From Cryobacterium breve (GTDB lineage: Bacteria; Actinomycetota; Actinomycetes; Actinomycetales; Microbacteriaceae): DNA of 64,000 nt. Both the position numbers and the translations under genes were made by a program. The notes under the pieces are model-generated. The model saw only the letters and a program-made list of their open reading frames with translations. It did not search any database and was not told the DNA's origin. Shown here piece by piece: positions 4,807-64,000 of this stretch. The stretch covers positions 2,790,001 to 2,854,000 of the forward strand of contig NZ_CP075584.1 of NCBI RefSeq assembly GCF_027594785.1. The letters are read 5' to 3'. Position 1 is the first letter of the stretch; each line of letters starts with the position of its first letter.

Positions 4807-6583
4807 ATGAAACACGAAGTATCCGTACCTCCTCGCATCCAGGCAACGATTCGTAGCAACGGAACCGGCGAACTGATCATCGACGGGGCGGGCCAGCAGG
4901 TGACGGCCGGCGACGAGGCCGGTGTTCGTGAAGAGATCATCAACCGCGTGACGGATGTCGCCCGCGAACTCGGTCGCCCGGTGCGGCTGACCGCCGACGA
5001 CGAGCAGGGCCAATGGCCCCTCGTCGTGCACCCGGACGGCGAAGTGGAAGCCGCGGGCGACTTCATCCCCGCCGCCGCACTGCCGAGCCACGCGCTCGAA
5101 ACCGAGGAACCCGCAGCGTCGCAGGGCAAGTCAGCCAAGCGGGCCATGGCCCACACCGGCGACCACAACGCCCCGGCGGCCCTGGCCGAACCGATGGAAC
5201 CGATCGATGCCCTCGAGGAACTGGCCGAGCTCGCAGCCCTGGGTGACCCCCTCGACGCCGGGGCGCAGACGTCCGTCGACGAGGCCGATGCCGAGTCGGC
5301 AGCGGAACGCGGGGCCGAAGCCGATGCAGCCGATGCATCCAACGCTGCACGCGCCGCCACTGTCGACGTCGATGACGACGTCGATGACGATGCCGAAGCG
5401 GATGCCGGTGCCGACGCTGATGCGCCATCTCAGGCCGCCGAATCCGTGCCCGCAGGGCCCCGCCGGACGCCAGGACCGCCACCCGGACTCTTCGAGGACA
5501 TCATCTTCGAACACGGCGATCTCGACGCCGACGAGGACGAGGACGAAATCGCGGCCGGCTCGGTAGCTGAGTTCCGGTCCACGCCGGTCTCCGCCTCCTC
5601 CGCACTGCTCGTCCCGGCACCGCACACGACCCTGGTCGCCGCGGAAGACGGTCCCAACCTCGCCGACTTCATGAGCCTCCCGCCCCGCGATCGTCGCAGG
5701 ACCCGCCCTCCTCGGCTGGCAGGGCACCGTGCGCCGGGTCACCGGCGGACTCGTGAATCCGTCGCCGGGCCGCAGCGAACTCGCCCGCCGCGCCGCAATC
5801 GCGGCAGTGCAGCGCAGCCTCAGCGGTCCCCGCACCATCGTGGTGCTCAACCCCAAGGGCGGCGCGCACAAGACCACCGCGACGCTGCTGATCGCCGCGA
5901 CGTTCGGCATCCACCGTGGCGGGTACACCCTCGCCTGGGACAACAACGAGACGATGGGCACCCTCGGCGTGCGGGCGCAGGGCGCCCAGCACACGAACAC
6001 GGCCGTCGACCTGCTCCGCGACCTCGAGGACTTCGCGTACTCCACGTCGGCGAGGGTCGGCGACCTCGACAAGTACGTGCGCAACCAGGGCGACGCCCGC
6101 TTCGACGCACTCGCCTCCGACCTCGACCCGGCCGGCGCCGCGAGCATCGACGACGTCGCCTTCGGCAAGCTGCACGCCGCACTGAGCCGCTTCTACCGGA
6201 TCCTGATCATCGACACCGGCAACAACATGCGCGCCTCGAACTGGGAGGCGGCCGTCGAGACCGCCGACCAGCTCGTCGTCGTCTCGACGATCCGTGAAGA
6301 CACCGCGTACGGCGCGGCCTCGCTCCTCGACGGTCTGCGGCTCAAGGGGCACGGGGACAAGGTCGCCCAGGCCGTGACCGTGCTCGCATCCCCGGCGAAG
6401 ACGGCCGACCGAGCCCTGTCCGCCCGGTTGCACGACCACTTCAGCCAGCTCACCCGCACCGTCGTCGACGTGCCATACGACCCGGCGCTCGTCGCCGGCG
6501 GCCCGCTCAACATCGACGCCCTCGCCCCGCGCACCCGTGAGGCCTGGCTCTACGCGACCGCTGCGATCGCCGAAGGCCTGTAG
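4807..6583 (+). CDS. ParA/MinD-like ATPase with long acidic N-terminal region (frameshift in sequence)
   Basis: About 591 residues once the extra base in AGCCT at 5674-5678 is removed (ATGAGCTCC expected). Residues 1-90 form a small alpha/beta domain; 90-260 are Asp/Glu/Ala-rich and disordered; the C-terminal ~290 residues are a P-loop ATPase of the ParA/MinD/SIMIBI class. The deviant Walker A reads NPKGGAHKTTAT, with His in the variable position; switch II is seen in ILIIDTGNN, where the usual DxPP/DxxG is replaced. Actinobacterial relatives occur with type VII secretion or septum-site genes, but none is near here. It may position a membrane or cell-wall complex; partner unknown. The ATG has AAAGG seven bases upstream. 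An imperfect CCTAA...TTAGG inverted repeat at 4695-4728 is in the promoter region. Confidence 0.8.
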
Positions 6584-6689
6584 TCGGCGCCGGGCGCCCG
6601 GGGACGTGTACCTTCCCGTTCGCCTGCGTACGTCATAATGCACGGCGGGCGTGCCAATCGGGGCCGCCCGCCGACAAGAAGGTCCACCC

Positions 6690-8523: not shown

Positions 8524-8935
8524 ATGCAGCGCACGATGTTCAAGTCCAAGATCCACCGCGCCACCGTGACGCAGTCCGACCTGCACTACGTCGGTTCGCT
8601 GACGGTTGACGAGGAGCCTGATGGAAGCCGGCGACCTGCTCGCCGGTGAGCGCGTCAGTATCGTCGACGTGAACAACGGCAGCCGCTTCGAGACCTACCT
8701 CATCGCAGGCAAGCGCGGCAGCGGAGTCATCGGCCTGAACGGCGCCGCCGCCCGCCTCGGCATGCAGGGCGACCTCATCATCATCATCTCTTACGCGCAG
8801 ATGAGCGACGAAGAAGCCCGCAGCTACGTCCCCGTCGTCGTGCACGTCGACGCGGACAACCACATCGTCGCGGTCGACGCAGACCCCTCAGGTGTACATG
8901 TCGCTGGCCTGAGCCGCCCGCCGCTCACGGCCTGA
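8524..8935 (+). CDS. panD: Aspartate 1-decarboxylase (frameshift in sequence)
   Basis: Converts L-aspartate to beta-alanine for pantothenate and coenzyme A. The start reads [20 protein letters not shown], almost the family signature, including the catalytic Lys of [14 protein letters not shown] is followed by an extra base in AGCCT (8615-8619); correcting to GAGCTG gives [12 protein letters not shown] and continues in the next frame with [18 protein letters not shown] and [12 protein letters not shown]. In PanD the self-cleavage Gly-Ser that makes the pyruvoyl group lies at residues 24-25, here YVGSLT, intact. Corrected length 136 residues, normal for the family. It is essential for CoA synthesis unless beta-alanine is supplied, so the break is almost certainly a sequencing error. 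The 3' end overlaps the convergent gene by 48 bp. Confidence 0.92.
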
Positions 8936-9437
8936 CGTCGAGCGCTCCTCGAACCGGCCGGTCTTCTCGGTCAGCTTGATCCGGTAGAGAACCGGTGCCT
9001 GACCGGATGCGGCCACCCGGACCGCCGACGGCGGCACCGGCTCAGACGCCGTCGTCCGGATCCCGTGGAACGTGCCGTCGGGACCCGAGACCGGCTGCGC
9101 CGTCGTCGACGTCACGTACGGTGCGAGCCGGGCGAGCAGCTTACGGAGGCCGTCGTCGGCATCCGCACCGTGCAGGCTCCTCGAACTCACCCCAGGCGAC
9201 GACGGTGCGCCAGCTGGCGAGGTCGTCGAGCTGCTCCACCTCGAAGCAGACAGCGGGGTTCGCCCGCATCATCTCGACTTTGGTGCCCGCTGCGCTGTGC
9301 GCGTACACGGTGTCGCCGTCGTAGGCGTAGGTGATCGGCACGATGTAGGTGCGGCCGTCGCTGTGGCAGCCGATCCGGCCGACCACACTGGTGTGCAGGA
9401 CTGCGTCGATTTCACGAGCGTTCAATTCCCCGAGCAT
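8888..9437 (-). CDS. Pyridoxamine 5'-phosphate oxidase-like flavin-binding protein (frameshift in sequence)
   Basis: 182 residues after removing one base from AGGCT at 9174-9178 on the plus strand (GAGCTG on the coding strand, giving [13 protein letters not shown]). The split-barrel fold is recognisable: [23 protein letters not shown] near the start, then [20 protein letters not shown] and [12 protein letters not shown], the pattern of FMN- or F420-binding oxidases and nitroimidazole-resistance-type proteins. The cofactor and substrate are not evident. It starts at 9437 opposite the transglutaminase-like gene, with a 156-bp divergent spacer between them, and runs convergently into panD. The corrected frame ends [12 protein letters not shown]. 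Confidence 0.82.
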
Positions 9438-11293: not shown

Positions 11294-11305
11294 GCGCGAC
11301 CAGGG

Positions 11306-16389: not shown

Positions 16390-17408
16390 ATGACGATCAT
16401 CGAAGCCAGGGGCCTGACCAAGACGTACCGCTCCAAGAGCGGGCCGGTGCATGCGCTCGCCGGGCTCGACCTCTCGGTTCCACGGGGCAGTGTGAAGGCC
16501 CTGCTCGGTCCGAACGGCGCGGGCAAGACCACCGTCGTGAAGGTGCTCACGACGCTGATCCGGCCGGACTCCGGCACGGCGTTCGTCGACGGAATCGACG
16601 TCGTCGCGGACCCGAAGGCCGTGCGCCGGATCATTGGGGTGTCGGGCCAGTACGCGGCCGTCGACGAGAACCTGACCGGTTTCGAGAACCTCGAGATGGT
16701 CGGTCGGCTCTACCACCTCGGCGCGACCGAATCCCGGCGTCGCGCCCAGGAGCTCATCGACCTCTTCTGAGCTCACCGCCGCAGGCAACCGCCCGGTCAA
16801 GGGGTTCTCCGGAGGCATGCGCCGGCGGATCGACCTCGCGGGAGCGCTCGTGATCAACCCCAAGGTGCTCTTCCTTGACGAGCCGACCACGGGGCTCGAC
16901 CCGCGCAGCCGTATCGCGCTCTGGAACGTGATCAAACGGCTCGTCGCCGACGGCACGACCGTGCTGCTCACGACCCAGTACCTCGAAGAGGCCGACCAGC
17001 TCTCCGACGACATCGTCGTGATCGACGACGGCCGGGTCATCGCCGAGGGCACCTCCGACCAGGCTCAAGGCGCAGATCGGCGGGCACCGCCTCGAAGTCG
17101 CGCTCGTCGACGCCGGTGCCGGCGCGAGCGAGGCGGCCCGCGGCATCCTCGCCCGCTTCGGCGACGGCGAACCGATCGTCACGAGCGACGGCCGCGGCCT
17201 CGAGGTCGCGGTGACCGACGGGCCGCTCGCCCTTCAGCACGTGCTCGCGGCGCTCGGCGACGCCGGTATCGAGCTGCACGACGCCGGCATGCGCCGGCCG
17301 ACGCTCGATGACGTGTTCCTCAAGCTCACGGGGCACAAGGCCGACAAGGCCACGGGCGCAGCGGATGACGACACCCTCGACCAGAAGGAAGCGGTGAAGG
17401 CCCGATGA
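16390..17408 (+). CDS. DrrA-like ABC transporter ATP-binding protein (two frameshifts in sequence)
   Basis: About 338 residues once two extra bases are removed: a T before GAGCTC near 16767 ([13 protein letters not shown] restored) and one in AGGCT at 17061-17065 ([10 protein letters not shown] restored). Walker [10 protein letters not shown], signature [13 protein letters not shown], Walker [14 protein letters not shown] and the DrrA-type C-terminal domain ([20 protein letters not shown]) are present. ATG 16390 is chosen for its nine-base spacing from GCAGGG; ATG 16381 directly abuts it. DrrA-type ATPases power export of anthracyclines or other hydrophobic drugs, or of membrane lipids. It overlaps the permease by 4 bp and is divergent from its likely TetR repressor. 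Confidence 0.9.
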
Positions 17409-21293: not shown

Positions 21294-22040
21294 TATGCCT
21301 CGGTAGCGTCGGTGCCCGCGGGAGCGTCGGCGTACTGCGCGCGGAGGAAGCCGACGATGTCGGAGAGTTCACCCTGCGAGATCGAGTGGCCCATGCCCTC
21401 GTAGATGCGCTCGGTGAGCACAGAGTGGCCGGGCAGCCAGGCCTGGGTGCGGCCGACGGCATCCGCCTGGATCACCGGGTCGGCCGTGCCGCGGCCCCAG
21501 AACACCGGAACGGGCCGTTCGGCGAGCTCGGCATCCCCGGGCTGGGGCGCCCCGGCGACGAAGCCCGAGAGCCTGCACCGCAAACGCGAACCGGTCGGGT
21601 GCCTGGCGCAGCAGTTGCAGCGCCATCGCGCCGCCCTGCGAGAAGCCGAGCAGCCCCACGGATGCCGGCGGCACGACGAGCGCGTCGAGCCAGGCGAGCA
21701 CGCTGTCCGTTGCCGCTTCGACAGCGGTCGCGCTCGGGGCGCTCGGGTTGACGTCCGCGCCGGGGACACCGATCGGGAACCACGCCCAGCCGCCGCCGAC
21801 CGGCAACGGTGCCCGCAGTGCGGCGAGGACGGGCTTGAGCGGCAGGTGCGGCGCGAGCGAGAAGAGGTCACCCTCGTGGGAGCCGTAGCCGTGCAGGATC
21901 AGGAGCAGCGGCCGCCCGACCCGGTCGGCTTCGGACGCCGACCAGAGCACCGCGCCGGGATCGATCGCCAGTGCGGCAGAGGCGGGTGCTCCGCCGGTGC
22001 TCCCGGTGCCGCCGGTGTTCTCCACGTCGTTGTCGTCCAT
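21293..22040 (-). CDS. Carboxylesterase/phospholipase-type alpha/beta hydrolase (frameshift in sequence)
   Basis: 248 residues after removing the extra base in AGCCT (plus strand 21570-21574), restoring FAVQLSGFVAGAP. The fold is the short carboxylesterase type: oxyanion loop LLLILHGYGSHEGDL, nucleophile elbow LLGFSQGGAMALQLL (Ser in GFSQG), Asp in GRGTADPVIQAD and His in GMGHSISQGE complete a catalytic triad. Such enzymes cleave short-chain or lysophospholipid esters. ATG 22040 has AGGA eight bases upstream. The C-terminus (ending ATEA) runs to the edge of repeat B1, whose insertion may have set the stop codon. Confidence 0.88.
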
Positions 22041-24280: not shown

Positions 24281-25700
24281 GTGCGGCGCTGGTTCGGGTC
24301 ACTCGGCGGCAGGATCCTGCTCGTCACGGTAGGCGTTGCGTTCGTCGCGGTTCTCGTCACTGCCGTCGTGTCCCTGCAACTCGTGCAGACCCTCGTCACG
24401 ACGCAGGCCCAGGCGGACCTCGGCGGCCGGACGACCGCGCTGAGCGAACGGCCGCTCGCGACCCTGCGCATCCTGCTCGAAGACGACACCCTCCTTGGCG
24501 GACGCGGCGAGCGCTTTGTGTTGGTCGGCGCCGACGGGACGGTACCGGAAACAGGTTCGGGTGCGCGCACGGTCACGCAGGACGTCAAGAGACGCATCAC
24601 CCAGGTACTGGATGCCGGCCGCTCGGTGTCGACGTCGCTGCAGATTCGGGGTGAGTCCTACGTGGTGGAAGCGCGGCCGCTCGCGGGAGGCGGCGGACTC
24701 GTCGGCTTCGTGCGCGTCGCGGACATCACCGACTCGGGCAGACTCGTCGCCGGGCGGATCCTGCTGGCCGTGCTCGTCGGGCTCGTCGTGGCCGTGCTCG
24801 CCGGACTGTTCCTGTCCCGGCGGTTGGCACGACCACTGGAGCGGACCGCACGAGCCGCTCGGCGGCTCGCCGACGGTGAACGCGGCGTGCTCATCGCGGC
24901 CCAAGGCATCCCGGAGATCGACGACGTGTCCCGCTCGCTCCGTGCCCTCGACCACGCGCTGGGTACGAGCGAGACCCGCCAACGGGAGTTCCTGCTCTCG
25001 GTGTCGCACGAGATCCGCACGCCGTTGACCGCGCTCCGTGGGTACGCGGAGGCCCTCGCCGAGGGCGTGATTCCGGCAAGCGACAGCGCGGCGGTCGGTG
25101 AAGTCCTGGTCGCGGAGACGAAACGCGTTGACCGTTTCGTGAGCGACCTGCTCGAACTCGCCCGCCTCGAAGCGGATGACTTCACGGTGCACCTGCAGCC
25201 GATCGACGTCGGCGGAGTGCTCGCGCAGGCTGCCCTCGCCTGGCAGGGTCAATGCACGCAGGCTCGGCGTCGCGCTGCGCGTTGACGGGCCGGGGGACGA
25301 TGCGGGTGCGGGCGCGGTGCCGGGTGTCCTCACGATCGTGACTGACGGCATGCGCCTGCGCCAGATCGTCGACGGCCTGCTCGAGAACGCGTTGCGCGCA
25401 ACGCCGACCGGCGGCGAGGTCGTACTCGCGGCCCGCCGGGTCGATGGCCGGCACGTACGTGTCGAGGTGCGCGACAGCGGCCCTGGTTTGAGCACATCGG
25501 ATGCCGCCGTCGCGTTCGAGCGCGGAGTCCTGCGAGCCAAGTACCGCGACATCCGCCCGGTCAACACGGGCCTGGGCCTGTCCATCGCCGCCCGGCTGGT
25601 GACCAGGATGGGCGGCACGATCACGGTGCAGTCCGCGGCCGAGGGCGGCGCGTGTTTCGCCGTGGTGCTGCCGGTCGGCGACGGGCCCGTCGCACGCTGA
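24281..25700 (+). CDS. Membrane sensor histidine kinase (frameshift in sequence)
   Basis: 472 residues after removing the extra base in AGGCT at 25260-25264 (CTQLGVALRVDGPG restored). GTG start at 24281. TM1 about 10-33, extracytoplasmic sensor about 34-150, TM2 about 160-183, HAMP (SRRLARPLERTARAARRLAD), HisKA with phospho-acceptor His in SVSHEIRTPLTALRGYAEAL (about 247), N box LLENALRATP, G1 VRDSGPGLS and G2 TGLGLSIAARLV. It signals to the regulator encoded just upstream. Trigger unknown. Confidence 0.9.
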
Positions 25701-29971: not shown

Positions 29972-30407
29972 GTGGCAATTCGGTACTGGCTCGGGGTCGC
30001 GCAGCGCGATAACGTGCAGCGGGGCGTCGCTATGGGGTTCGCGCAGGCCGGCTACCGGCTGCGCACCACGCTCGAGGGCATGCGGGAGAGCGACGGGGTC
30101 GTCTACTACTCGCCGAAGACCGCCGTCGAGGGCGAGCTGCTGCGGGAGTTCACCGCGATCGGGTTCGTCGCCGAGGGGAACGCGTACGAATTCCGGAGCC
30201 CCGAGACGCCCTCCGGCACCTATGTGCCGTGGCGGCGGCGCATCGACTACGACACGGATGCCGTCAGCACCTCGATCCGCCCGCTCCTGAACGTGCTCGA
30301 GTTCACCCGGTCCGACCCGGACTGGGGCTACCAGGCTCCGCCGCGGCCTGCTCGAGATCTCGCGGCACGACTACGACCTGATCCGGAGGCAGATGCGCCG
30401 CATGTAG
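29972..30407 (+). CDS. EVE-domain protein (frameshift in sequence)
   Basis: 144 residues after removing the extra base in AGGCT at 30333-30337, which restores GYQLRRGLLEISRHDYDLIR and a stop at 30405-30407. The whole protein is one EVE domain: AIRYWLGVAQRDNVQRGVAM, SDGVVYYSPKT, LREFTAIGFVAEGNAYEF and PWRRRIDY. EVE is a PUA-like fold that binds modified bases (5-methyl- or hydroxymethyl-cytosine) in some restriction enzymes and RNA modifications in YTH relatives. Standing alone here, its ligand is unknown. GTG start preceded by GAGG. Confidence 0.85.
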
Positions 30408-34471: not shown

Positions 34472-35282
34472 ATGGTGAGGCTCAGCGGCGGCGGCATGTA
34501 CAGGCGGCGCATGGCGGAATCCGTGATCGACAAGCTGCTGCGCGAGCAGGGCGGAACGCCGGACCGTTCCCCGTGGCTTCGGTTCAGCGGGCGCTCACCG
34601 CTCAGCAAGCGCTGCGAGGGCTGGTATCTCGCCGCGCTCGGTGAGATCGCCGTCGGGAAGAGCCTCGAGGCGCTCAGGCTCCGACTGGACCGTCTTCCAC
34701 GCGCTCCCGATCGGCCTCGAGGGCTGGGACATCGACCACCTGATCGTCGGCCCAGGCGGAGTGATCACCATCAACGCGAAGCAGCACCGCGGGGCACGCA
34801 TCCTCGTCGACAAGTCCGTGCTGACCGTCAACGGACGCACCGTGCCCTACCTCCGTCACGCCGAGTTCGAGGCGAACCACGTCACCGACCTGATGAGCGA
34901 CCGCCGTGCCCAGACCGCACCGGTGCGGCCGACGGTGGTCTTCGTCGGCGCGCGCGAGGTCAAGGTCAGGGCTCGCCCGCCGTTCGTCACGGTGCTCGAC
35001 GTCGACGACCTCGTCGGCTGGCTCGAGGCTCTCCCGGTCGTGCTCGACCAGAATGAGTGCGGCCGGTTCACCGACCTGTTCGACAACCCGGCCATGTGGG
35101 CGAACGTGCCCGTCGAAACCGGTGACGACCTGATCGAACGCTTTGAGGTCCTCGACACGGAAGTCCGTGCGGCCGGCCGCCAGCGCCGCATCTACCTCCC
35201 GCTCGGGATCTTCCTCGGCAGCGCCGCCGGCTTCTTCGGGATCTTCGGGCTCGTGTCCGAGGCCCTGGGTCTCAGCGGCTGA
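34472..35282 (+). CDS. NERD-domain (nuclease-related) membrane protein (frameshift in sequence)
   Basis: 269 residues after removing the extra base in AGGCT at 34676-34680 (EALSSDWTVFHAL restored). The NERD domain spans about 45-160: LAALGEIAVGKSLEAL, DIDHLIVGPGGVITINAKQH, with the Asp and the Lys (INAKQH) in the restriction-endonuclease-like pattern E...D...xxK. A single membrane helix lies near the C-terminus (LPLGIFLGSAAGFFGIFGLV). NERD proteins are assumed to process DNA, but activity has rarely been shown. ATG 34511, 13 codons later, is an alternative start. Repeat B3 begins 8 bp past the stop. Confidence 0.87.
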
Positions 35283-37208: not shown

Positions 37209-39583
37209 GTGGCTACACCGGAATCGACAACGAAGCGGGATGCCTCCGCGACGCCAGCGCCCGCGGGGTTCCCGCCGGCATCCGCGGAGATGGCCGACAT
37301 CGGGAACGGACCGATCCGGGCTCGCCGCCGCCAATGGGGCGCGGAGCGGCGTAGCGAACCCCTCTCGATCGTGCACCCACGGCCGAGCTCCCGGGCGATC
37401 GCGGGGGCCCGAGTCGCCATCGTGGCGACGGTGGGCTTCTGGGCGTACTACCTCCTGACGACCATCGTGCGGTTGTTCGTCGACACCCCGCGCCCCGACT
37501 TCACCTTCACGATGGAGGCGATCGGCTACGCCATCGTGGTCACCTTCCTGACCTTCTCCGCGTCGATGTACCTTCTCGCGCGCCTCGGCGCGATGTACCG
37601 GCACCAGAGCCACGTGCGCGTGCCGCGCGGTGAGCTCGACCGGCACTTCGGCACCTACCAGCACGGGATCACCGTGCTCGTACCGTCGTATGCCGAGGAG
37701 ACGCACGTCGTACGCGCGACCCTGTGGTCGGCGGCGCTGCAGGAATTCCCCGACCTCGGGATCGTGCTGCTCCTCGACGATGCGCCGTTCCCGACCGACC
37801 CCGAGACGCTGCGCGTGCTCAACGCGACCAGGGCGCTCGCCGGTGAGATCGGCGAGCGGCTTGCCGCGCCTGCCGCGCGGTTCCGGCTCGGCGCGGAGCG
37901 CAGGCTCGACCGGTTCGTCGATGACCCGCGGGTCACGGCGGCGGATGTCCGCGATCTCGCCGACGACTACGCCGCGGCCGCCGCGTGGCTGGAGGAGATG
38001 GCCGCGGCCGAGGAGGTGCTCGACCACGTCGACGAGTTCTTCGTCGACCAGGTCATCATGGGCGTGGCCCGCGAGCCTGCGGCTGAGCCTGCTCGCGCTC
38101 GAGTCGTCGGCCGCGGGCGCCGACTTCCCCGACGCCGACCAGATCGTGACCCTCTCGCTGCGCCTGGCCCGGATCTTCACCGCCCGGCTCGACTACTTCG
38201 AGCGCAAGAAGTATGCCTCCCTTTCACACGAGGCGAACAAGGCGATGAACCTCAACTCCTACATCGGCCTGATGGGCACGTCGTGGGTGACCGACCACAC
38301 GGCCGAGGGCACGGTCCTGCGACGCGCTGTCGGGGATGCCGTGGGCGACTTCCCGGTGCCCGACACGGAATACCTGCTCACCCTCGACGCGGACTCCCTG
38401 CTGCTCAGGGACTACTGCGTGCGTCTCGTCCACCTGCTCGAGGAGCCCGAGAACGCCCGGGTGGCCGTCACGCAGACGCCGTATTCCTCGTTCCACGGGG
38501 CCCCGACGCGCATCGAGCGGATCGCCGGTGCGTCGACCGACCTGCAACATATGCTGCACCAGGGCATGACCTACTTCGACGCGACTTTCTGGGTCGGCGC
38601 GAACGCCGTCATCCGCAAGAAGGCCCTCGAGGACATCGTCGAGGTCGAGGAGGTCGGCGGCTTCGAGATCCGCACCTACATTCAGGACCGCACCGTGATC
38701 GAGGACACCGAGTCGAGCATCGACCTCGGCACTCACGGCTGGACCCTCGTCAACTACCCCGAACGCCTGAGCTACAGTGCCACCCCGCCCGACTTCGGCT
38801 CGCTCATCGTGCAGCGCCGGCGCTGGGCCAACGGCGGACTGCTCATCCTGCCGAAATTCTGGGACCAGGCTCCGGGAGCGCCGCTTCCGCCGCGAGCGGG
38901 TGCGCTGGAGCGAGGTGTTCCTCCGCACCAACTACATGGCCTCGATCGCCTGGTCGAGTTTCGGGCTCATCTTCCTGCTCGCCTTTCCATACGACAGCCG
39001 GCTGCTCAGCCCCTTCGTCTTCCTCGCCGCGCTGCCCTACTTCCTCGCGATGGGCACCGACCTGCGCGACGCCGGCCATCGGTTCAGCGACGTGTTCCGC
39101 ATCTACGGCTTCAACCTCGTGCTGCTCCCCGTCAACCTCGCCGGGGTGCTCAAGTCGTTCCAGCAGATGTTCTCGGCCGAGAAAATCCCATTCGTGCGCA
39201 CCCCGAAGGTGCTCAACCGCACGGCGGCGCCGGCGCTCTACGTGATCGTTCCCTACCTGATCGTGGCGTTCTCGCTGCTCACGCTCTACCGGGACATCAG
39301 CCATCAGAACGTCGGCAACGCCATCTTCGCCGCCTTCAATGCCGTCGCGACCGGCGCGGCGATCCTGATGTACATCGGCCTGTGGAACTCCGTCGTCGAC
39401 GTGTGGCTCGGTCTGCTCAACTTCCTCTACGTTGACGTGAAGAAGCCGAAGCAGCCGGCAGGGTTCCGGATCGACCCCGGCGCGCCGGTCGACTGGCAGG
39501 GCATCCTCTACCACGGCGACCGACGGCTCAACCGGGACAGCCGCACCTCCCGGGACCGGCGCCGCCGGATCGGCGTGCGCTAG
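37209..39583 (+). CDS. Cellulose-synthase-like glycosyltransferase family 2 (two frameshifts in sequence)
   Basis: About 790 residues after removing extra bases in AGCCT (38074-38078) and AGGCT (38867-38871), restoring VARELRLSLLALE and DQLRERRFRRERV. Two N-terminal membrane helices (about 65-115), a cytosolic GT-A domain, then five or so C-terminal helices. GT2 motifs: TVLVPSYAEE, LTLDADSLLL (DxD), and QRRRW (QxxRW), all needed for processive synthesis through a membrane channel. An insert of about 130 helical residues lies between the first and second motifs. GTG start. Product could be a beta-glucan, chitin-like or hyaluronan-like polymer. Divergent GH18 neighbour supports an amino-sugar polymer. 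Confidence 0.9.
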
Positions 39584-43323: not shown

Positions 43324-44194
43324 TCAGTTGCCGATCTGGAACACCGTGCGGCCGGGCAGCGGGGACGGCGTCGCCGTCGCATCCGTCGTCACGAGCGCGC
43401 TCGCCATGAACTGCCGCAGGCTCCGCGCCCTCGACGACCTTGGCCGGGTGCGGGCCGCCGGCGAGCAGCCGGGGCACCCAGGTCAGGTCGACCGCGGTGA
43501 GCGTCGCGACGAGCACGATGTTGCCGAAGCGGCGGCCCTTGAGCACCTGGGTCTCGGCGAGGCCGATCACGTGCGGGAACACCGCGGAGAGCGTCGCCGC
43601 CTGGGCGCGCGCGAAGGCCAACCCGGGGCCGTCGGCCACGTTCACGACGAGCACCCCGCGGGGGCTCAGCAGCGGCCGGGCGAGCTCGTAGAACTCGCGG
43701 CTGGTCACGTGGGCGGGGGTGCGCGCCCCCGAGAAGATGTCGACGACGACGAGGTCGGTGGTGCCGTGCAGCCCGGCCGGCAGCTTGGCGAGCACCTCGC
43801 GGGCGTCGCCGTGCCGCACCCGCAGGTTCGCGCGCTTGTCCCAGGGCAGCTCGGCGCGCACGAAGTCGATCAGGTCGCTCTCGATCTCCACGACCTGCTG
43901 CCGCGAGCCGGGCCGGGTCGCCTCGACGTACCGGGGGAGCGTGAGCGCACCTGCGCCGAGGTGAACGGCTGTGATCGGTTCGCCGACGTCGCCGAGCAGG
44001 TCGATGACGTGCCCGATCCGCTGCACGTACTCGAAGAACAACTCGTCGGGGTTGTCGATGTTCACGTGCGACTGCGGCGTGCCGTCGACGACGAGCTCGA
44101 AACTTCCCGGCACGAACCGGTCCGGCTGGACCTCCGCGACCATCCCACTCAGCTTCAACGTGACCGACGGATGCTGCACTTCAGACCTGCTCAT
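43324..44194 (-). CDS. Spermidine-synthase-like methyltransferase-fold protein (frameshift in sequence)
   Basis: 289 residues after removing the extra base in AGGCT (plus strand 43418-43422), which gives VVEGAELRQFMASALVTTD and a stop at 43324. Rossmann fold of the spermidine synthase/SAM-methyltransferase type: TAVHLGAGALTLPRYVEATR (motif I), VVEIESDLIDFVRAEL (acidic residue binding the ribose), RHGDAREVLAKLP, and TTDLVVVDIFSGARTPAHVT. The last matches the 'fused MFS/spermidine synthase' soluble branch common in actinobacteria. Polyamine-forming activity is doubtful. ATG 44194 sits after GGGGGG. Confidence 0.85.
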
Positions 44195-44573: not shown

Positions 44574-52012
<7,439 letters not shown>

Positions 52013-52191: not shown

Positions 52192-55087
52192 ATGCAACAA
52201 CTGGCACGCATCAGCGCGGCCGTCACCGGGGCGATGGGACTCATCGTGCTCGCAGGCTGGTACCTCGGCGCGAGCACCCTACCGGCCCCGTTCGCAGGCC
52301 CCTGGTCGATGAAGCCGACGGCGGCCCTCGCTCTCCTCGTGCTGTCGCTTGCCCTGTTCCTGCTCGAGCGGCGTCGGGTGGCGCTGGTCCTGGGGCTTAC
52401 CGTCGCCCTGATCGGCGCCCTCACCCTCTCCGAAGACATCCTGGGCGTGACCCTCGGCATCGACCGACTGCTGCCCGGCATCGCCCTCGGCGGCCAGGAA
52501 CCGCGCATGGCGCCTGCAACGGCCGTTTCACTCATCCTGCTGGGTATCGCCGTCTGCGCGAGCCTGCTGCCTCGGGCTTCCTGGATGCTCGGCCTCGCCT
52601 TCGGCTCTCTGACCGTGAGCCTGCTCGCATTGCTCGGCTACGCCTACGGGGCGTCCTCGCTCTACACCCTGAGCGGGTACACGAGCATGGCTCTCATCAC
52701 CGCCCTCGCGGTGGGGTTCGCGTCGGTCGCGATTCTTCTGGCCCGTCCAGATACCGGCCTCGTCGGATTGCTGCGCGACCCGGGCAGCGCAGGGAGGCTG
52801 CTCCGCCAGGTCGTTCCACTCTTCCTGCTCGGTCCCTTCATGCTGGGTTGGCTGCGACTCTGGGGCCAGCGACAGGGCTTGTTCGACACGGTGCTCGGTG
52901 TCGCGTTCCTGATCGCCACGATGACGGTGGTCGGCATCGGCCTGAGTTGGGTGGCCGCGCGGAGGCTGCGCGACCTCGACCGGCAGCGCGACGCCGCCAT
53001 GGTCGCGATGGACGAGGCAAACCACACCCTCGAGACTGCGGTGGACAGGCGCACCCGCGACCTCGCGAAGGTCGCGGACACGCTGCACACCCTCGTCGCG
53101 ATCGCCCCGGTGGGCATCGTGCAGATGGATGCGGCCGGCGGACTTGTCAGCGCCAACGACCAGTGGCATGCCCTGAGCGGCCTCACCAGGGAAGAGTCAC
53201 GGCGGGGCGGAATCGCCACCGCCATCCACCCCGACGACACCGAGCGCGTGCACCGCGACTGGGCCGGCGCGATCAGAGCCGGGGTTGCGTACGAGACGAT
53301 GATGCGCTTCCGCACTCCCGGTGGTCAGGTCAACTGGGTACAGGTGAGCACCGCGCCGATCCGGGACGCCGGTCAGGTCATCGGGCACATGGCCACGGTC
53401 ACCGACGTGACCGCCCTACGCGCTGCGGAACAGGCTGTTTCGGCCGCGCGGGCGCAGTTCGAGGCGGCGTTCACGTCGTCGCCGCTCGGCACGGCGATCG
53501 TGGATCTCGACGGCAGGGTGGTGGCGGCGAACCCGCGGCTGTTCGAGCTCGCCGGGCCGGCATCCGTCGTGGTCAACCGGCAGATCGAGGCCATCTTCAT
53601 GCCGTCGGATGCCGGGGCGTCCGGTGACCGCACCTCGGAGGCGCTCGACGGGCCCTCCACCCGGCAACGAATGGACCGGCGGATGCGCCGGGTCGACGAC
53701 GAGGAAACCTGGGTCAAGGTGAGCATCGCCGAGATCTCCGCGGGGGAGCAGGCCGGCGCGCTGCTGTATCAGGTTGAGGACATCACCGCCCGTCGCCTCG
53801 CCGAGGCCCGGGTGGAGCACCTCGCGTTCCACGACCCGCTGACCAGCCTGCCCAATCGCCTGCTGCTTCTCGACCGGCTCAACCAGGCCCTGTTGCAGTC
53901 ATCCCGGCACGGGCACGGCGTGGCCGTGCTGTTCATCGACCTCGACAGGTTCAAGTTCGTCAACGACAGTCTTGGCCACCACATCGGAGATGCCGTGCTG
54001 ACCGAGGTCGGGGTGCGGCTCCGGCAGCAGGCGCGGGCCGCCGATACGGTATCCCGTATCGGCGGGGACGAATTCGTCATCATCTGTCCGGGCGTCGACA
54101 GCAGCCAGGACGTGCACACACTGGCCCACAACCTGCAGCTCGCAATTGCCGAACCGATCCGGATCGGCGACCTGGTCGCATCCGTCGACGCGAGTATCGG
54201 CATCGCCTTCGGCCTCGGCCACGACGACGCGGAGGCGCTGCTCCGCAACGCGGACCAGGCCATGTACTCCGCCAAAGGCCGGGGTCGGGCCCGCTACGAG
54301 GTCTTCGACGATGACCTGCGTGGCCGCATCCACCGGCGGCTGGACACCGAGCTCGCCCTCCGCGACGCCGTCGAGTCTCGACGAGATCGAGACCTGGTAC
54401 CAGCCGATCGTCGATCTCCAGGAGAACACGGTCGTCGCCACCGAGGCCCTCGCCCGGTGGCGCCGCCCCGAGCGCGGCATCGTCTACCCGGGCGAGTTCA
54501 TCGCGATCGCCGAGGAGGTCGGGTTGATCAAGGGCATCGGCGTGACCGTTCTCGGTCAGGCCTGCCGGGCGGCCGCGACCCTCGACGGCGGTCTCGCGGT
54601 GAGCGTCAACGTCTCCCCGCGACAGTTCGCTCAAGACGACTTCGGCGCCGTTGTCAAACGCGCGCTGGCGGAGAGTGGGCTGCCCCCGAGCGACTCTGGA
54701 TCGAATTGACGGAGAGCGCCGTGCTCGAGGCCATCGACTCCGCGGCCCGGACCTTCCAGGAGCCTGAGGGAACTGGGCGTCAAGCTGGCGATCGACGACT
54801 TCGGCACCGGATACTCCTCCTTCACGCACCTCCGGGCCTTCACCGTCGACCTGCTCAAGATCGACGTCACCTTCGTGCGGGACCTCGAACGCTCCGAACA
54901 CGACCGGGCGATCGTCGAGGGCATCCTGCGCCTTGCCGACTCGCTCGGACTCGCCGTCGTCGCCGAAGGCATCGAGTCGGCAGGCCAACGCGACCTGCTC
55001 CGGTCCATGGGCTGCCGCTACGGGCAGGGCTACCTCTTCTCCAGGCCGGGCCCGTCACCGCTGCCCGTCGTGAGCTTCGACAGCTGA
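52192..55087 (+). CDS. Membrane PAS-GGDEF-EAL cyclic-di-GMP signalling protein (three frameshifts in sequence)
   Basis: 964 residues after correction: extra base in AGTCT 54374-54378 (DAVELDEIETWY), one C missing in the run 54683-54687 (LPPERLWIELTES), extra base in AGCCT 54761-54765 (FQELRELGVKL). Residues 1-270 hold about eight membrane helices, then two PAS domains (from ~305 and ~425), GGDEF (DPLTSLPNRL, FIDLDRFKFVND, RIGGDEFVII) and EAL (ATEALARW, ELTESAVLE, AIDDFGTGYSS, VVAEGIES). Both catalytic signatures are intact, so it may make and break cyclic-di-GMP. It follows the rpoBC terminator and has its own start region. Confidence 0.92.
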
Positions 55088-55205: not shown

Positions 55206-55227
55206 TTTAGGTGCCTTCACCTGGCGC

Positions 55228-55284
55228 TGAGGTGTCGCAGATCGACGTTCGCAGGGCCAACGAACGTCGATCTGCGACACCTCA
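55228..55284. repeat. Palindromic repeat, family C copy 2
   Basis: TGAGGTGTCGCAGATCGACG and its exact complement CGTCGATCTGCGACACCTCA, with AGGGCCAACGAA in the centre. The most symmetric of the three copies. It directly follows the truncated family B element. Confidence 0.9.
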
Positions 55285-55578
55285 GCGAGGGTGTGGAGGG
55301 CACGACCTGCTGCGGGACAGGGGTCGGACGTGAACCTGTGAACCGCGAATCTTGTTCCCTGGCTCATCCGCTGGCCGTCGCGGCCGGCCCGAGCCGGGGG
55401 ATTTGCCCCCTTGCCAGCCCATCCCAATTGCAGCGTTATGCAACATTCCCCGGTGAGACGGGGCAGGGTCTCGAGGCTCGACCCGGTGAAGCTGGCAGTA
55501 TCGACCAGTTTCGTGGACACGAGCTCCCCGTGCACCTACGGTCGGCCTTGTACGCAACTGACGACGGAGGTGAACGAG

Positions 55579-56407
55579 ATGGATGATGCCCAGGCATTTC
55601 GCGCCCCCCGCGCCCTCTGGCTCGCTCTCGTCGCAGTTGCGCTCGGCATCGCCTGGTTCCTGTGCGGCGGGACGAATCCCGCATCTGCCGCCGAGCTGCT
55701 CCCCGATGCGTCTCCTGCAACGGATGCCGCCGCACCCGGCCTCCTGAACGCTTCCGTCCCTGAGCTGGTCGCCAGCGTCCCTGCCGCTGCGGTCTCCCTC
55801 GTGGCTGACGTACCTGGCGTCGACACCGCAACGATCGACGCGGAGTCAACAGACGTGCCCGAAGCCGTCGGGACGACCATTGCGCCGATTCTGGCCGCCG
55901 TCGCTGCCGAAGTACCCGACGTCGGCATCCCGGACCTCGGCATCCCGGATGTGGTGGGTCTTCCCGTAGCCGTGCCCGTCGTCGTGCCCGTCGCCGTGCC
56001 CACGATCGCCCTCGCGGCTTCAGACGTTTCCACCCTCGTGACTCGCGCAGTGATCACGTCGGTCGTCCCGGCCGGGACCGTCTTCGTCGCGCCGAGCGTG
56101 CATTCGTTCGCGCCCTCTGCGCGCGGCACCGCCGGCACCCCCGGCAGGCTCCGACGCGGTCGCGAGCCTGACGCAAGCGGATGCCGCGGCATCCGCTACC
56201 GGAGCCCCGCTCGGCACGCCGGGACACCCCGTCAACCTGCCGCAGCCCGCTCCCGATGCCGCAGCACCGGGCGGCGGCAGTTCGGCAGCTCTGCTCGCAA
56301 CCTGCGGATCAACACGCGCCGCGTCGGTCGCGGCTCTCCGTCTCACTTTCGAGGACGACTCCCTGCCGTCCTCCCTCTCCATCGACCCTGGTTCTTCTCC
56401 CGCCTGA
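55579..56407 (+). CDS. Secreted Ala/Val-rich protein upstream of the chaplin-like gene (frameshift in sequence)
   Basis: 275 residues after removing the extra base in AGGCT at 56146-56150, which restores TPGSSDAVASLTQADAAAS and a stop at 56405-56407. GGAGG lies eight bases before ATG 55579. A signal peptide ends at TNPASAAE. The mature chain is rich in Ala, Val and Pro, with a striking hydrophobic valine block (VGLPVAVPVVVPVAVPTIAL) and few charges; one Cys near the end. No family is recognised. The composition, export signal and position 90 bp before a chaplin-like gene suggest a surface or amyloid-type partner. Confidence 0.75.
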
Positions 56408-56496
56408 GTAAGTCCCGGCCGTGCTTTCCCGACGGCATGCGGACCACCGCCACGCGTTCCTCGCGCGGCTCACTCGCACTTTCAAGGAGAATCACC

Positions 56497-58014: not shown

Positions 58015-58030
58015 TCCCGACACCTCAGGC

Positions 58031-58068
58031 ACGGATGCCGTCGGCCCGACCGGGCCGGCGGCATCCGT
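58031..58068 (+). terminator. Terminator of the chaplin-like gene
   Basis: ACGGATGCCG-T-CGGCCCG pairs with CGGGCCG-GCGGCATCCGT: a long stem with one bulge, 17 bp after the stop. Outer stem ACGGATGCC/GGCATCCGT is the same as in the rpoBC terminator. Confidence 0.8.
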
Positions 58069-58077
58069 CGCGCCCGT

Positions 58078-58150
58078 GTCCGCGCCCGCGCCGGTTTGCG
58101 CGGGCCGCGCCCGCCGTTTCGGGAGCGGCCAGCGGAAAAGGTAGCGGCCT
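58078..58150. repeat. GC-rich palindromic repeat, family F copy 3
   Basis: Contains CGCGCCGGTTTGCGCGGGCC and CCGCGCCCGCCGTTTCGGGA, the latter identical to a stretch at 10481-10500, then GCGGAAAAGGTAGCGGCC similar to the end of copy 1. It directly adjoins the family C palindrome that follows. Confidence 0.7.
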
Positions 58151-58152
58151 TG

Positions 58153-58209
58153 TGAGGTGTCGCATATCGACCTTCGTTGGCCGAAGGAACGTCGATATGC
58201 GACACCTCA
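58153..58209. repeat. Palindromic repeat, family C copy 3
   Basis: TGAGGTGTCGCATATCGACC ... GGAACGTCGATATGCGACACCTCA. Compared with copies 1 and 2, CAGATCG became CATATCG on the left and the matching base changed on the right, so the pairing has been kept by a compensatory change. It lies between the chaplin-like gene and the convergent kinase gene. Confidence 0.9.
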
Positions 58210-58246
58210 CGGCCCCGCACTGTGCACCTGGCGGCGCCGGGGGCAG

Positions 58247-59713: not shown

Positions 59714-60429
59714 TCCGGAACGCCGAACCGGAAGCCCACCCCCCGCACCGATTCGATCCAACCGGGATTGCCGAGCTTCTTGCGGATGGCCGCCACGTGG
59801 GCGTCCAGCGTCTTCGTGGTGCCGTGCCAGGTCGTCTCCCACACGTCGTGCAGGATATCCGCGCGCCGGTGCACCGCGCCCGCGTCGCGCGACAGGTAGA
59901 CGAGCAGGTCGAATTCGGTGGGGGTGAAGTAGACCTCGGTGCCGGCGAGCGACACCCGCTGGGTGCGGGTGTCGATGACCAGGGACCCGAGCACCCGCTC
60001 GGTGCGGCCGCCCGACCCGTCCGCGCCGGTCGCCGGGCCGGCATCCGTGCCCGCACCCGCAGCAGCGCTCGCGGCCGTGCGCCGCGACACCGCACGGATG
60101 CGCGCGATCAGTTCGCGCATCCCGAACGGCTTCACCACGTAGTCGTCCGCGCCCATCTCGAGAGCGACCACGCGGTCGATCTCATCGTCGCGCGCGCTCA
60201 CCACGATGATCGCGATCTGCGACGACGAGCGGATGCTGCGGCACACCTCGCTGCCGTCCATGTCCGGCAGGCCGAGGTCGAGGAGCACGAGGTCGGGCGC
60301 GAAGCTCGTCATCGCCGAGAGCGCCGCCTGGCCGGTCTCGACGTGGAGGGACTCGAACGCCGCCATCGCCAGGCCGTCGATGATCCCCGACGCCACAGGA
60401 CCGTCGTCTTCGACCACCAGAACTCGCAT
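59710..60429 (-). CDS. OmpR-family response regulator
   Basis: 239 residues. Receiver: EDD at 7-9, phospho-acceptor in LVLLDLGLPD (about 51), VVSARDDE, Lys in YVVKPFGM. A Gly/Ala/Thr linker of about 25 residues separates it from the winged helix: FTPTEFDLLVYLSRDAGAVH, HRRADILHDVWE and TLDAHVAAIRKKLGN, ending SVRGVGFRFG. The spacer to the divergent genes (60430-60553) has a TTTGACAAG...CTTGGAC repeat-like pair near 60490-60512 that could be its target. Confidence 0.93.
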   Translation of the reverse strand: MRVLVVEDDGPVASGIIDGLAMAAFESLHVETGQAALSAMTSFAPDLVLLDLGLPDMDGSEVCRSIRSSSQIAIIVVSARDDEIDRVVALEMGADDYVVKPFGMRELIARIRAVSRRTAASAAAGAGTDAGPATGADGSGGRTERVLGSLVIDTRTQRVSLAGTEVYFTPTEFDLLVYLSRDAGAVHRRADILHDVWETTWHGTTKTLDAHVAAIRKKLGNPGWIESVRGVGFRFGVPE

Positions 60430-60553
60430 GACACCATTGTGCCGGTGCGAGTGCGCGGCCGCCCCCTCATCCCGGGCGACACCGCGCAATCTTTGACAAG
60501 TCTTGGACGTTCGGGGGCCCCATCTTTTCTCGCGCCTCCCTAGCGTGGGAGAC

Positions 60554-61081
60554 ATGAAATCACAGGCAATCACGATCCTGTCCATCGTCGGGGTGCTCGG
60601 TACGGGCGTTGCGGCGATGGCCGTCAACTCCGATGTCCTGTCCTCGTCCGTCCAGGCCCCGATCGGGCAGTCCTCCGAGGCCCTGCTCGTCACGCCGTCG
60701 GCCGACCCGGCCACTCCCTTGCAGCCAGACCCCGCCGCGACCGGGATCGCCGTTCCGACCGACCTCCCCGCCGCCGGTGGCTCCGATGACACCGGCGCCG
60801 TGTCCGGCTCCGACGACGGCAGCACCCAGCCGTCTCCCGGGTCGACCGGTGCGGGAACCCGTTCCGAGCCGGGCGCCGCCTCCGGTGCCGGGAAATCAAC
60901 CGGCGGCGACGACGCACCGCGCCCGGTCCCCGTCCCGGTCGCTCCCGCACCGGCTCCCGCCCCCGCGCCGGCCGCACCCGTTGTGACGCCCGCCCCGACG
61001 AAAGCCCCGCACGTCGAGGACAGCGGCTCCGACGACTCGAAGACCCCCAGCACCGGAGAGAAAATTGAAAAGGACGACTAA
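60554..61081 (+). CDS. Exported Pro/Ala/Ser-rich protein
   Basis: 175 residues. N-terminal hydrophobic helix (AITILSIVGVLGTGVAAMAV) acts as signal or membrane anchor; the rest is Asp/Ser/Pro/Ala/Gly-rich and unstructured, with an Ala-Pro repeat (APAPAPAPAAPVV) and a charged end. No domain recognised. First gene of the run leading to ApbE and the flavocytochrome; its end overlaps the next start by 17 bp. It may be a stalk or linker protein in the cell wall. Confidence 0.75.
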   Translation: MKSQAITILSIVGVLGTGVAAMAVNSDVLSSSVQAPIGQSSEALLVTPSADPATPLQPDPAATGIAVPTDLPAAGGSDDTGAVSGSDDGSTQPSPGSTGAGTRSEPGAASGAGKSTGGDDAPRPVPVPVAPAPAPAPAPAAPVVTPAPTKAPHVEDSGSDDSKTPSTGEKIEKDD

Positions 61082-61586
61082 GCGCCGCCAGCCCGCCCGC
61101 GGCGCGAAGGCCGTCACCGGCGCCGTCTCCGCCCTCGCCCTCGTCGGCATGGTGACCGGCTTCCAGATCTCCGCCCACGCCGACGAGGCCGCCGCACGCA
61201 AGGCGGCGCCCGCGCCGGCCCCCACGAGCACGGCCGGAGCGACCGACCCCACGGCGGCCCCCGAGCCGTCGGCGAACCCGCCGACGGCAACGGCGGCACC
61301 GGGTGCAGCGGATGCCGCCGGCACGGTCCCCGCCCCGGCTCCGGTCGCTGCGGCGCCCGCCGGAGCTCCGGCACCGGCCCCGGCACCGGCCAAGAAAGCC
61401 GCTCCGGCTCCGGTCGCCCCTGCCCCGGCGCCCGCGGCGGCTCCGGCCCCTGCTCCCGCGCCAGCGCCGGCTCCCGTCGCCGCACCGGCACCAGCCCCAG
61501 CCCCCGCCCCCGCGCCCGCTCCGGCACCCGCTCCCGCGCCCGCACCGGCCCCGGTGGCCGCGACCTCCGCCGGATCCGGAGGCTGA
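61065..61586 (+). CDS. Exported Ala-Pro-repeat protein preceding ApbE
   Basis: 173 residues from TTG 61065 (GGAGAG upstream, inside the preceding gene). Basic N-terminus MKRTTKRRQPARGAK plus a hydrophobic helix and AHA cleavage: a signal peptide. The remainder is almost pure Ala/Pro/Val (many APAPAP), ending AATSAGSGG. In other actinobacterial clusters with the same neighbours, a protein with this kind of start carries an FMN-binding domain; none is present here. The stop is three bases from the ApbE start. Confidence 0.75.
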   Translation: MKRTTKRRQPARGAKAVTGAVSALALVGMVTGFQISAHADEAAARKAAPAPAPTSTAGATDPTAAPEPSANPPTATAAPGAADAAGTVPAPAPVAAAPAGAPAPAPAPAKKAAPAPVAPAPAPAAAPAPAPAPAPAPVAAPAPAPAPAPAPAPAPAPAPAPAPVAATSAGSGG

Positions 61587-61589
61587 GAG

Positions 61590-62645
61590 TTGGCGGTCGA
61601 CTCCATCGCCCGCACCGCCATCCGGGCCGTGTTCACCGAGACCGGAACGCAGCCCGAGGTCATCACGCGTGCCGTGACGCTCATGGGCGGGCGGGCCTCG
61701 TTCGCGCTCGTCGGCGCATCCGCCGGCCTGATGGACGACGTCGTCGACCTGGCGAACCGCCTCGAACGACTCTGGAGCCGGTTCCTCCCCGACAGCGACG
61801 TCTCCCGGCTCAACGCCGCAGAGGGCGAACCCGTCGCCGTCGACCCCTGCACCGTGCGCCTGATCGCGGCCATGCTCGACGGCGCCCGGCTGACCAGGGG
61901 CGACTACGACGCGACCCTGTTGCCGGACGTGCTCGCGGCCGGGTACCGGGCATCCGCCCTCGACCCCGGCCGGGTCACCGTATTGCCGGCGTCGGCGGTC
62001 TCGCCCGGCAACCTCTCCGGGCTGACCATCGAGGACGGAGCCCCGCACCTGGACCGGATCGTGACGCTGCCGCTCGGCACCACGATCGATCCCGGCGGCG
62101 TCGGCAAGGGCCTCGCCGCCGACCTCCTCTGCGCGTTCGCTCTCGACGCCGGCGCCTGGGGCGCCCTCGCGGAACTCGGCGGGGACATCGTCGTCGCCGG
62201 CCAGGCTCCCGACGCCGTCGCCTGGCGGCTCGGCGTCGAGAACCCCTTCGACCCCGGCCAGCATTCCGCCGTCGTGCGGCTCGCCGCGGGTGCGCTCGTC
62301 ACCTCGAGCCAGCGGAAGCGGCGCTTCCCGGCCGCCGGCTCCGACCCGGTGACCCCGACCGCGGCGTCCGTCCCGGCTGCCGCGTCCGTCCCGAAGGCCG
62401 CGTCCGCCCCGGCCAGCCGTCACCACCTCGTCGACCCGCGCACCCACGAGAGTGCGGCCACCCGGGTGCAGACCGTCTCCGTCATCGCCTCCACCGGCGC
62501 CCGCGCCGAGGTGCTCACCAAGCCGGGCTTCCTCCGCCCCACCGCCGACTTCCTCGCCTGGCTGCCCACCGTCGGCGCCGCGGGCCTCATCATCGACGAC
62601 ACCGGACTCGTCACGACCTCCACGAACTGGGAGCACTACGCATGA
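61590..62645 (+). CDS. apbE: FAD:protein FMN transferase (ApbE)
   Basis: 351 residues from TTG 61590. ApbE attaches FMN from FAD to a Ser/Thr of exported flavoproteins. Family blocks: MGGRASFALVGASAGLMDDV, ERLWSRFLPDSDVSRLNAAE, IDPGGVGKGLAADLLC (FAD-binding), WGALAELGGDIVVAG and DPRTHESAATRVQTVSVIAS with the metal-binding Asp/Thr region. An Ala/Pro/Val/Ser insertion of about 25 residues sits before HHLVDPRTH. No N-terminal lipobox is seen, so it may act in the cytoplasm. It overlaps the flavocytochrome gene by 4 bp. Confidence 0.9.
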   Translation: MAVDSIARTAIRAVFTETGTQPEVITRAVTLMGGRASFALVGASAGLMDDVVDLANRLERLWSRFLPDSDVSRLNAAEGEPVAVDPCTVRLIAAMLDGARLTRGDYDATLLPDVLAAGYRASALDPGRVTVLPASAVSPGNLSGLTIEDGAPHLDRIVTLPLGTTIDPGGVGKGLAADLLCAFALDAGAWGALAELGGDIVVAGQAPDAVAWRLGVENPFDPGQHSAVVRLAAGALVTSSQRKRRFPAAGSDPVTPTAASVPAAASVPKAASAPASRHHLVDPRTHESAATRVQTVSVIASTGARAEVLTKPGFLRPTADFLAWLPTVGAAGLIIDDTGLVTTSTNWEHYA

Positions 62646-64000
62646 ACGATCCGCACCTCTGGTGGTACATCTCGAGGGCGAGCGCCGTCATCGGCTGGGC
62701 GCTCATGACGCTGTCGGTGGTCTGGGGCATCCTGCTCTCCACCCGCGTGATGCGCCAGATCGACAACCCCGCCTGGCTCCAGGACCTGCACCGCTACTTC
62801 GGCGGCGCCGCGATCGTGATGGTCGCCGTGCACATGCTCACCCTGATGCTCGACGGCTGGCTGCACCTCAGCATCGCCGAGGTTCTCGTGCCGTTCACGA
62901 GCCACTTCAAAGCGCTCCCGGTGGCCCTCGGCGTCACCGCGTTCTACCTGCTCGTCGCCGTGCAGGGCACCTCGCTGCTGATGCGGTACCTGCCGCGACG
63001 GTTCTGGAAGGTCGTGCACTACTCGAGCTACGCGACCCTCATCCTCGTCTCCTTCCACGCCGCCTTCACCGGAACCGACGTCGGCACAAGCTGGTACCGC
63101 GTCGTCTCGATCGGGCTGATCCTCATGGCGATGCTCGCCGTCGTGCTGCGCCTCGTCGCGGCCAAGCGCGGGTCGGGTGCGGCCGCCGGTCGTGCAGCGG
63201 ATGCCGCCCGCGGCATCCGCCCCGCCCCGGCGCTTCTTGAGACACGCACCATGCGTGTCGCGGCCGTGACCCGCGTCGCCGAAGGCGTCCTCGGCATCCG
63301 CCTGGTGCCTGCGGCCCCCGCCGAAACCGCGCCCGCTGTGCCCGCTGGGTCGCCGGCCGACACGCGCACGGATGCCCTCGCCACGACGGGCTCCGTCGCC
63401 GTGCGCGCCGCCGGGACCGCGACCGCACTGCTGCCGGCCTGGCACCCGGGCGCGCACATCACCCTGCACCTGCCGAACGGCCTCGAGCGGCAGTACTCGC
63501 TCTGCGGCGACCCCGCAGAGCGGTCGCACCTCGACATCGCCGTCCTGCAGACCGAAGCGTCGCGGGGTGGCAGCGCCTGGATCCACGCGAACCTCGCGCC
63601 GGGTCTCGTGCTCGAGGTGTCCGGCCCGCTCAACCACTTCGAACTCGAGCCCGCCGCCGCGTACCTCTTCATCGCGGGCGGCATCGGAATCACGCCGATC
63701 ATGGGGATGATCGAGTCCCTGCCCGCTCGCCGCGACTGGAAGCTCGTCTACCTCGGCAGGAGCCGCAGCACGATGGCCTTCCTCGACGAGCCTGCTCGAG
63801 CGCTACCCCGACCGGGTCGAGGTCCTCGCCCGCGACGAGCAGGCTCGTGCAACCCGAGGCGAGCGAACTGCTGATCGCCGCCTTCGGGGGCCTCGGCGGC
63901 CTCGACGCCGCCACTGCACCGGACTCCTTCGCGAGCCGCGCCGACGTGTACTGCTGCGGCCCGGAATCCCTCATGCAGGCCGTGGCCGCGCTCGTGCCCC
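62642..64000 (+). CDS. Ferric-reductase-like flavocytochrome, truncated by window edge (two frameshifts in sequence)
   Basis: At least 452 residues; runs past the window. Extra bases in AGCCT 63789-63793 (LDELLERYPDRV) and AGGCT 63841-63845 (RDEQLVQPEASE) must be removed. Membrane part (1-185) has about six helices with paired His that can hold haems (DLHRYFGGAAIVMVAVHMLT, KVVHYSSYATLILVSFHAAF). The cytosolic part is a ferredoxin-NADP reductase module: GAHITLHLPNGLERQYSLCG (FAD), LFIAGGIGITPIMGMIES (NAD(P) motif), YLGRSRSTMAF, and VYCCGPESLM. It would move electrons from NAD(P)H across the membrane; the ApbE next door implies a flavinylated partner outside. Confidence 0.9.

Follow-up and report, generated by a model that had tools for sequence, protein, structure and literature searches.

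Single-base insertions at GAGCTG and GAGCTC in the Cryobacterium breve assembly suggest misreading of a modified cytosine

The genome assembly of Cryobacterium breve (G000; 3.96 Mb in one contig) carries an excess of single-base insertions at the DNA words GAGCTG and GAGCTC (together GAGCTS, where S is G or C). The genes that these insertions interrupt in the 64,000-nucleotide stretch analyzed here (G000:C1 2790001-2854000, hereafter the window) are almost certainly broken by sequencing mistakes. An initial annotation of the window had listed twenty frameshifts as an extra base inside AGCT, and all 20 coordinates carry the string AGNCT. An added base relative to another genome is evident at 19 of them, 15 by comparison with the near relative G005 and four by comparison with G031 and others; the listed site at 56146 has no aligned relative. 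As that annotation also stated, nearly all read GAGCCT or AGGCTC, since 19/20 are GAGCCTC, GAGCCTG or CAGGCTC and the site at 54374 is GAGTCTC. We consider it probable that the extra bases reflect nanopore misreading of a native modified cytosine in an AGCT-containing site, and that the best candidate enzyme is a C5-cytosine methyltransferase encoded in a restriction-like island of this genome. The earlier observation is confirmed, and its interpretation is partly supported.

A stretch of 384 kb of G000 (the window plus 320 kb around it) was aligned with 400 kb of G005, which is estimated to be complete and is 98% identical over the rpoB stretch. The genus relationship is also apparent from the FKBP-domain protein of the window, whose first matches are from Cryobacterium, with 94% identity along its full length to C. 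algoricola. High-scoring segment pairs (HSPs) were excluded if they were less than 82% identical, were shorter than 300 bases, had an unexpected orientation, or overlapped a better HSP by more than one-tenth. The alignment yielded 154 kb in 53 pieces, of which 44 kb lie inside the window. A census of tetramers covered 153,044 places, with 40,057 that lacked identical flanking anchors left unscored; a place was anchored if identical two-base anchors stood on both sides, and denominators are the sums of inserted and unchanged places. By this measure, 27/306 anchored AGCT places of G005 have gained one base in G000, versus 15/7330 for the 15 other palindromic tetramers (p ~3e-28). The comparison with a close relative that the initial annotation had proposed thus bears out an excess at AGCT. 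When the lookup was reversed, with tetramers of G000 sought in G005, AGCT was missing from the list of the eight tetramers that most often gain a base. The aligned part contains 170 single-base indels, 39 of which have a G005 AGCT within seven columns, and 37 of these 39 are of the AGNCT type.

The initial annotation drew the motif as AGCT, which proves to be too wide. Counting only AGNCT or AGCAT forms as affected (insertions of other forms were left out, as were four AGCT places where the change differed in length), the 384 kb sample holds 47 affected sites, and all 47 are GAGCTG or GAGCTC by the letters of G000 itself. GAGCTG is affected at 37 sites and intact at 100, and GAGCTC is affected at 10 and intact at 103. 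Every other AGCT context is free of the insertion (0/237: GAGCTT 0/81, AAGCTG 0/60, CAGCTG 0/52 and the rest 0/44; Fisher p 2.5e-15). At the same 47 sites, G005 reads AGCT 37 times, AACT five times, AGTT twice, and ACCT, AGCC and GCCG once each. We infer that G000 has GAGCT at the ten sites where G005 differs, an assignment that is doubtful for the AGCC and GCCG ones. Three affected hexamers would likewise be CAGCTG, AAGCTC and TAGCTC by the letters of G005, and are GAGCTS by those of G000.

Read on the GAG strand, the gained letter is C at 43 sites and T at three, and the remaining site is the AGCAT form; an extra C or T at 46/47 sites is what would be expected for a disturbed cytosine. Furthermore, the error rate depends strongly on the flanking letters. 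Of the GGAGCTG sites with A, C or T as the next base, 12/15 are affected, and CGAGCTGC is affected at 12/39, while CGAGCTGG and AGAGCTGG taken together are affected at 0/35; GGAGCTGG and TGAGCTGG stand at 3/9 and 2/6, respectively. Codon phase is the same at 33 of the 37 sites where it could be read, a figure that is uninformative because it lacks a baseline from intact sites.

Word counts extend this pattern to the whole genome. G000 contains 1763 copies of GAGCCTG, compared with 956 in G005, which gives ~895 expected after scaling G005 by size and a surplus of ~870, and GAGCTG occurs 2967 times versus 4151, which gives ~3888 expected and a deficit of ~920; these estimates are rough, because the G005 counts span both of its contigs and the scaling used the main contig. 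The surplus of one word therefore balances the deficit of the other. For every GAGCTG, G000 has 0.59 GAGCCTG; this ratio lies between 0.21 and 0.27 in all seven other Cryobacterium genomes counted. The surplus of GAGCCTC is smaller (1017 in G000 versus 954 in G005, unscaled), and GAGTCTC as a whole shows none (284 versus 288). Taken at face value, these numbers would amount to about a thousand false one-base insertions in the consensus at GAGCTG and GAGCTC.

The GAGCCTG words are also divided unequally between the contig strands in G000 (794 and 969, p 3.4e-5) and about equally in G005 (493 and 463, p 0.35), an inequality that a consensus step might produce. For the palindrome GAGCTC, 10/10 affected sites of the sample lie in one contig orientation. 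The whole-genome bias of GAGYCTC is modest (696 and 605, p 0.013), and so we place little weight on this uniform orientation.

The rpoB gene, identified by Pfam, carries three insertions, as the initial annotation had noted: GAGCCTC at 45309..45315 and 47792..47798 on the plus strand and CAGGCTC, which is GAGCCTG on the minus strand, at 45513..45519, each with one more base than G005. The next gene was likewise called rpoC, a name that stands on its position after rpoB and on the 1345-residue frame of G005, and not on a profile scan of the gene. It has one insertion, GAGCCTG at 50776..50782 (plus; +1 base relative to G005, which has AGTT there), and a one-base loss described below. A gene for a PAS-GGDEF-EAL protein contains GAGTCTC at 54373..54379 and GAGCCTG at 54760..54766 (both plus, +1 base relative to G005), and the EAL domain found in the G005 gene is absent from the window's frame. 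Sites aligned to G005, together with two extra indels, fall in 12 distinct genes, and the five remaining sites would add about three more; the earlier figure of at least 16 broken genes is thus near, and is not established.

One could suppose that these are real one-base insertions, made for example by a resident nuclease that cuts bluntly in the middle of AGCT, followed by sloppy end joining. The extra base does sit at the center of the palindrome that AluI-type blunt cutters cleave, and G000 does have a restriction-like island. A living cell could hardly carry such lesions, however, because rpoB is hit three times and rpoC twice. Real insertions would also imply about a thousand frameshifts across the genome, would have to spare AAGCTG and CAGCTG, which are never hit, and would have to follow the contig strand. 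We rejected real mutation because essential genes are hit, and regard it as highly improbable. Programmed frameshifting, wherein the extra base is real and is skipped in translation, would agree with the location of all 47 affected sites within open frames of G005. The motif lies on the coding strand at 24 of these sites and on the opposite strand at 23, and this split indicates that no translation signal is involved and that the sites have no mRNA signal in common. The extra base is moreover missing from the aligned relatives. The strand split led us to discard this explanation, to which we assign an even smaller chance. Taken together, the broken rpoB and rpoC genes, the lack of any link to gene strand and the dependence on flanking letters show a systematic, motif-bound consensus error, in agreement with the initial annotation's view that these are not real mutations.

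Such an error might come from the base caller or the polisher acting on the DNA word itself, with no modification present. The flank-dependent rate, and the fact that GAGCTS alone among AGCT contexts is affected, are what a faulty k-mer model would give. Against this, all seven other Cryobacterium assemblies counted lack the excess, five of them in one to three contigs, although their sequencing platforms may differ. GAGCTG is also a very common word, and a fault of this kind would be widely noticed. We therefore judge an error of software alone to be unlikely.

Nanopore misreading of a modified cytosine would proceed as follows. The strain would modify a cytosine of an AGCT-containing site, presumably as 5-methylcytosine (5mC), and its native DNA would be read by nanopore with a base-calling model unaware of the modification. 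In certain flanks, the caller would turn the shifted signal into a pair of bases, CC or TC, in the majority of reads, and polishing would retain the doubled call to give GAGCCT or sometimes GAGTCT. The restriction to GAGCTS may originate with the enzyme or with the base caller.

The putative source of the modification is the only PF00145 (C5-cytosine) methyltransferase of G000, encoded at G000:C1 1356675-1357931 on the minus strand (profile match E 2.5e-62) and without a match in G005. We searched G000 for four methyltransferase families (PF00145, PF01555, PF02384 and PF02086). The PF00145 protein contains PCQ, ENV and QxR motifs, which we take to be the catalytic motifs of the C5 methyltransferase family. 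Its gene resides in a restriction-like island in which a scan of five neighboring frames found no match to another Mza model and found instead a GmrSD-like gene and an HNH gene; for this reason we call the island Mza-like, and not Mza. The search for a methyltransferase that the initial annotation had recommended has thus supplied a strain-specific candidate, whose specificity for AGCT is presumed. That annotation's proposal of an AGCT-specific modification gains from the existence of this candidate, and loses from the confinement of the errors to GAGCTG and GAGCTC.

A 275-residue frame upstream of the methyltransferase matches no Pfam, NCBIfam or PADLOC family at the limits used, and we did not treat it as a restriction enzyme. 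Adjoining the island is a large helicase-nuclease protein with AAA_11/AAA_12, MTES_1575 and DUF3320 matches (G000:C1 about 1360850-1365710, plus strand; L120 13852-18708), an arrangement that suggests a defense cluster.

The modification could also be real and be made by an enzyme other than the C5 methyltransferase of the island, such as an N4-cytosine enzyme. AGCT is reported as an N4-methylcytosine target elsewhere (PMC6329791), and methyltransferase families beyond the four that were searched could be present. A PF01555 enzyme occurs in all 13 Cryobacterium genomes searched (G000 and 12 others) with near-equal best scores, and is possibly a genus-wide orphan. The best solved relatives of the G000 representative are M.RsrI and CcrM, and its best NCBIfam models are adenine-specific, though these matches fall below the cut-offs. 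On balance, a source other than this C5 enzyme seems rather improbable.

Motif-bound errors of related kinds have been described. According to PMC6591954, Dcm sites (CCWGG, 5mC) account for about 70% of nanopore consensus errors with default models. As proposed here, those errors are bound to a motif with a methylated cytosine on which callers were untrained; G000 differs in its motif, in the dominance of one-base insertions and in having a putative modification. A paper on Modpolish (PMC10687267) describes Listeria strains whose mza system includes a methyltransferase and whose nanopore genomes are of low quality, with GCAGC/GCTGC as the sites of error. G000 resembles them in that strain-specific, motif-bound errors accompany a strain-specific island of Mza type that bears a methyltransferase. 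AGCT itself is a natural methylation target, as N4-methylcytosine in a Thaumarchaeota bin (PMC6329791) and as a motif of M. hungatei JF-1 (PMC10689673). These are other organisms, the modification is N4 in the former, and the accessible text of the two papers describes no insertion errors. We made no use of 5mC at GRGCYC in Propionibacterium freudenreichii (PMC11649196), a motif that covers GAGCTC and not GAGCTG. Literature on AGCT or GAGCTG nanopore methylation and on nanopore Cryobacterium genomes held no report of the insertion in the titles and abstract openings of the matches listed, though other wordings are possible.

Several observations weigh against modification by the island enzyme. 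First, the known errors take another form: those in Listeria are mismatches (PMC10687267), whereas those in G000 are insertions, and the methylation-induced errors in the accessible part of PMC11610573 are purine or pyrimidine mix-ups, with zero occurrences there of ‘insertion’ or ‘indel’. Second, the 237 error-free sites in other AGCT contexts, 81 GAGCTT included, mean that plain AGCT modification fits only through an effect of base-caller context. Third, the nearest relative of the methyltransferase, from a Rathayibacter plasmid (57% identity), is among the matches listed without a stated target, and neither the solved relatives nor the 20 plasmid matches listed include a close relative with one. 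G000 also has three N6_Mtase (type I-like) genes and the M.RsrI/CcrM-like enzyme. Fourth, the affected GAGCTG sites of the sample, 12 on the plus and 25 on the minus strand, do not differ significantly in strand from intact sites (p 0.18). Fifth, C-to-T miscalls, sought as a second footprint, show no clear excess and were dropped: at the cytosine of GAGCTS they are at most slightly commoner in G000 (29/330 versus 19/306, with palindromes counted twice), and calls polarized with a third genome, G007, give 1/65 versus 2/65 at AGCT, a small set because poor synteny limited the alignment to 21 kb out of 384 kb. Finally, the case for modification is read entirely from the letters of an assembly.

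With these points in mind, we put forward as a tentative proposal, on which the odds are somewhat unfavorable, that the C5 methyltransferase of the Mza-like island marks AGCT or GAGCTS genome-wide and that nanopore callers add a base in response to this mark. If true, insertion signatures in public assemblies could reveal methyltransferase targets without raw signal; and if the methylation link holds, motif-bound insertions would be a cheap detector of modification systems not yet known, which could be tied to candidate enzymes. No new kind of biology is needed; the novelty would consist in the motif itself, in an error that takes the form of an insertion, and in its connection with an Mza-like island. 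There are also consequences for the use of the assembly. G000 is the sole genome of its species in the set, and by our estimate holds about a thousand false frameshifts. Its estimated completeness is 83.4%, compared to 96 to 100% for 18 relatives of the same genus, and the false frameshifts probably explain this low score. Gene losses read from G000, such as those of rpoB, rpoC or the EAL half of the GGDEF-EAL protein, would be wrong.

The remaining sites of the window are distributed along its length. Those with one more base than G005 on the plus strand are GAGCCTC at 5673..5679, GAGCCTG at 8614..8620 (where G005 has ACCT and not AGCT) and GAGCCTG in an esterase-like gene at 21569..21575. 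Those on the minus strand, all CAGGCTC with one more base than G005, lie in a transglutaminase-domain gene (9173..9179), an ABC transporter gene (17060..17066), a histidine kinase gene (25259..25265), a gene with no Pfam family at E 1e-5 (30332..30338), a NERD-domain gene (34675..34681) and at 43417..43423. GAGCCTG at 38073..38079 (plus) and CAGGCTC at 38866..38872 (minus) each have one more base than G031 and two more Cryobacterium loci. GAGCCTG at 63788..63794 (plus) and CAGGCTC at 63840..63846 (minus) have one more than G031 and G064, and CAGGCTC at 56145..56151 (minus) is a match to the string, with no relative aligned there.

Two more indels touch an AGCT, as had been claimed, and deviate from the GAGCTS insertion pattern. 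The same ABC transporter gene has gained a T at 16768, just before GAGCTC (16767..16774, plus), and rpoC has lost one base and has one letter changed at 49422, between two adjacent AGCT words (49419..49427, plus), both relative to G005. The stretch of the window from about 55100 to 64000 is unaligned with G005 under the filters used; its last part matches G031 at 88 to 92%, and the stretch is probably variable content within the genus.

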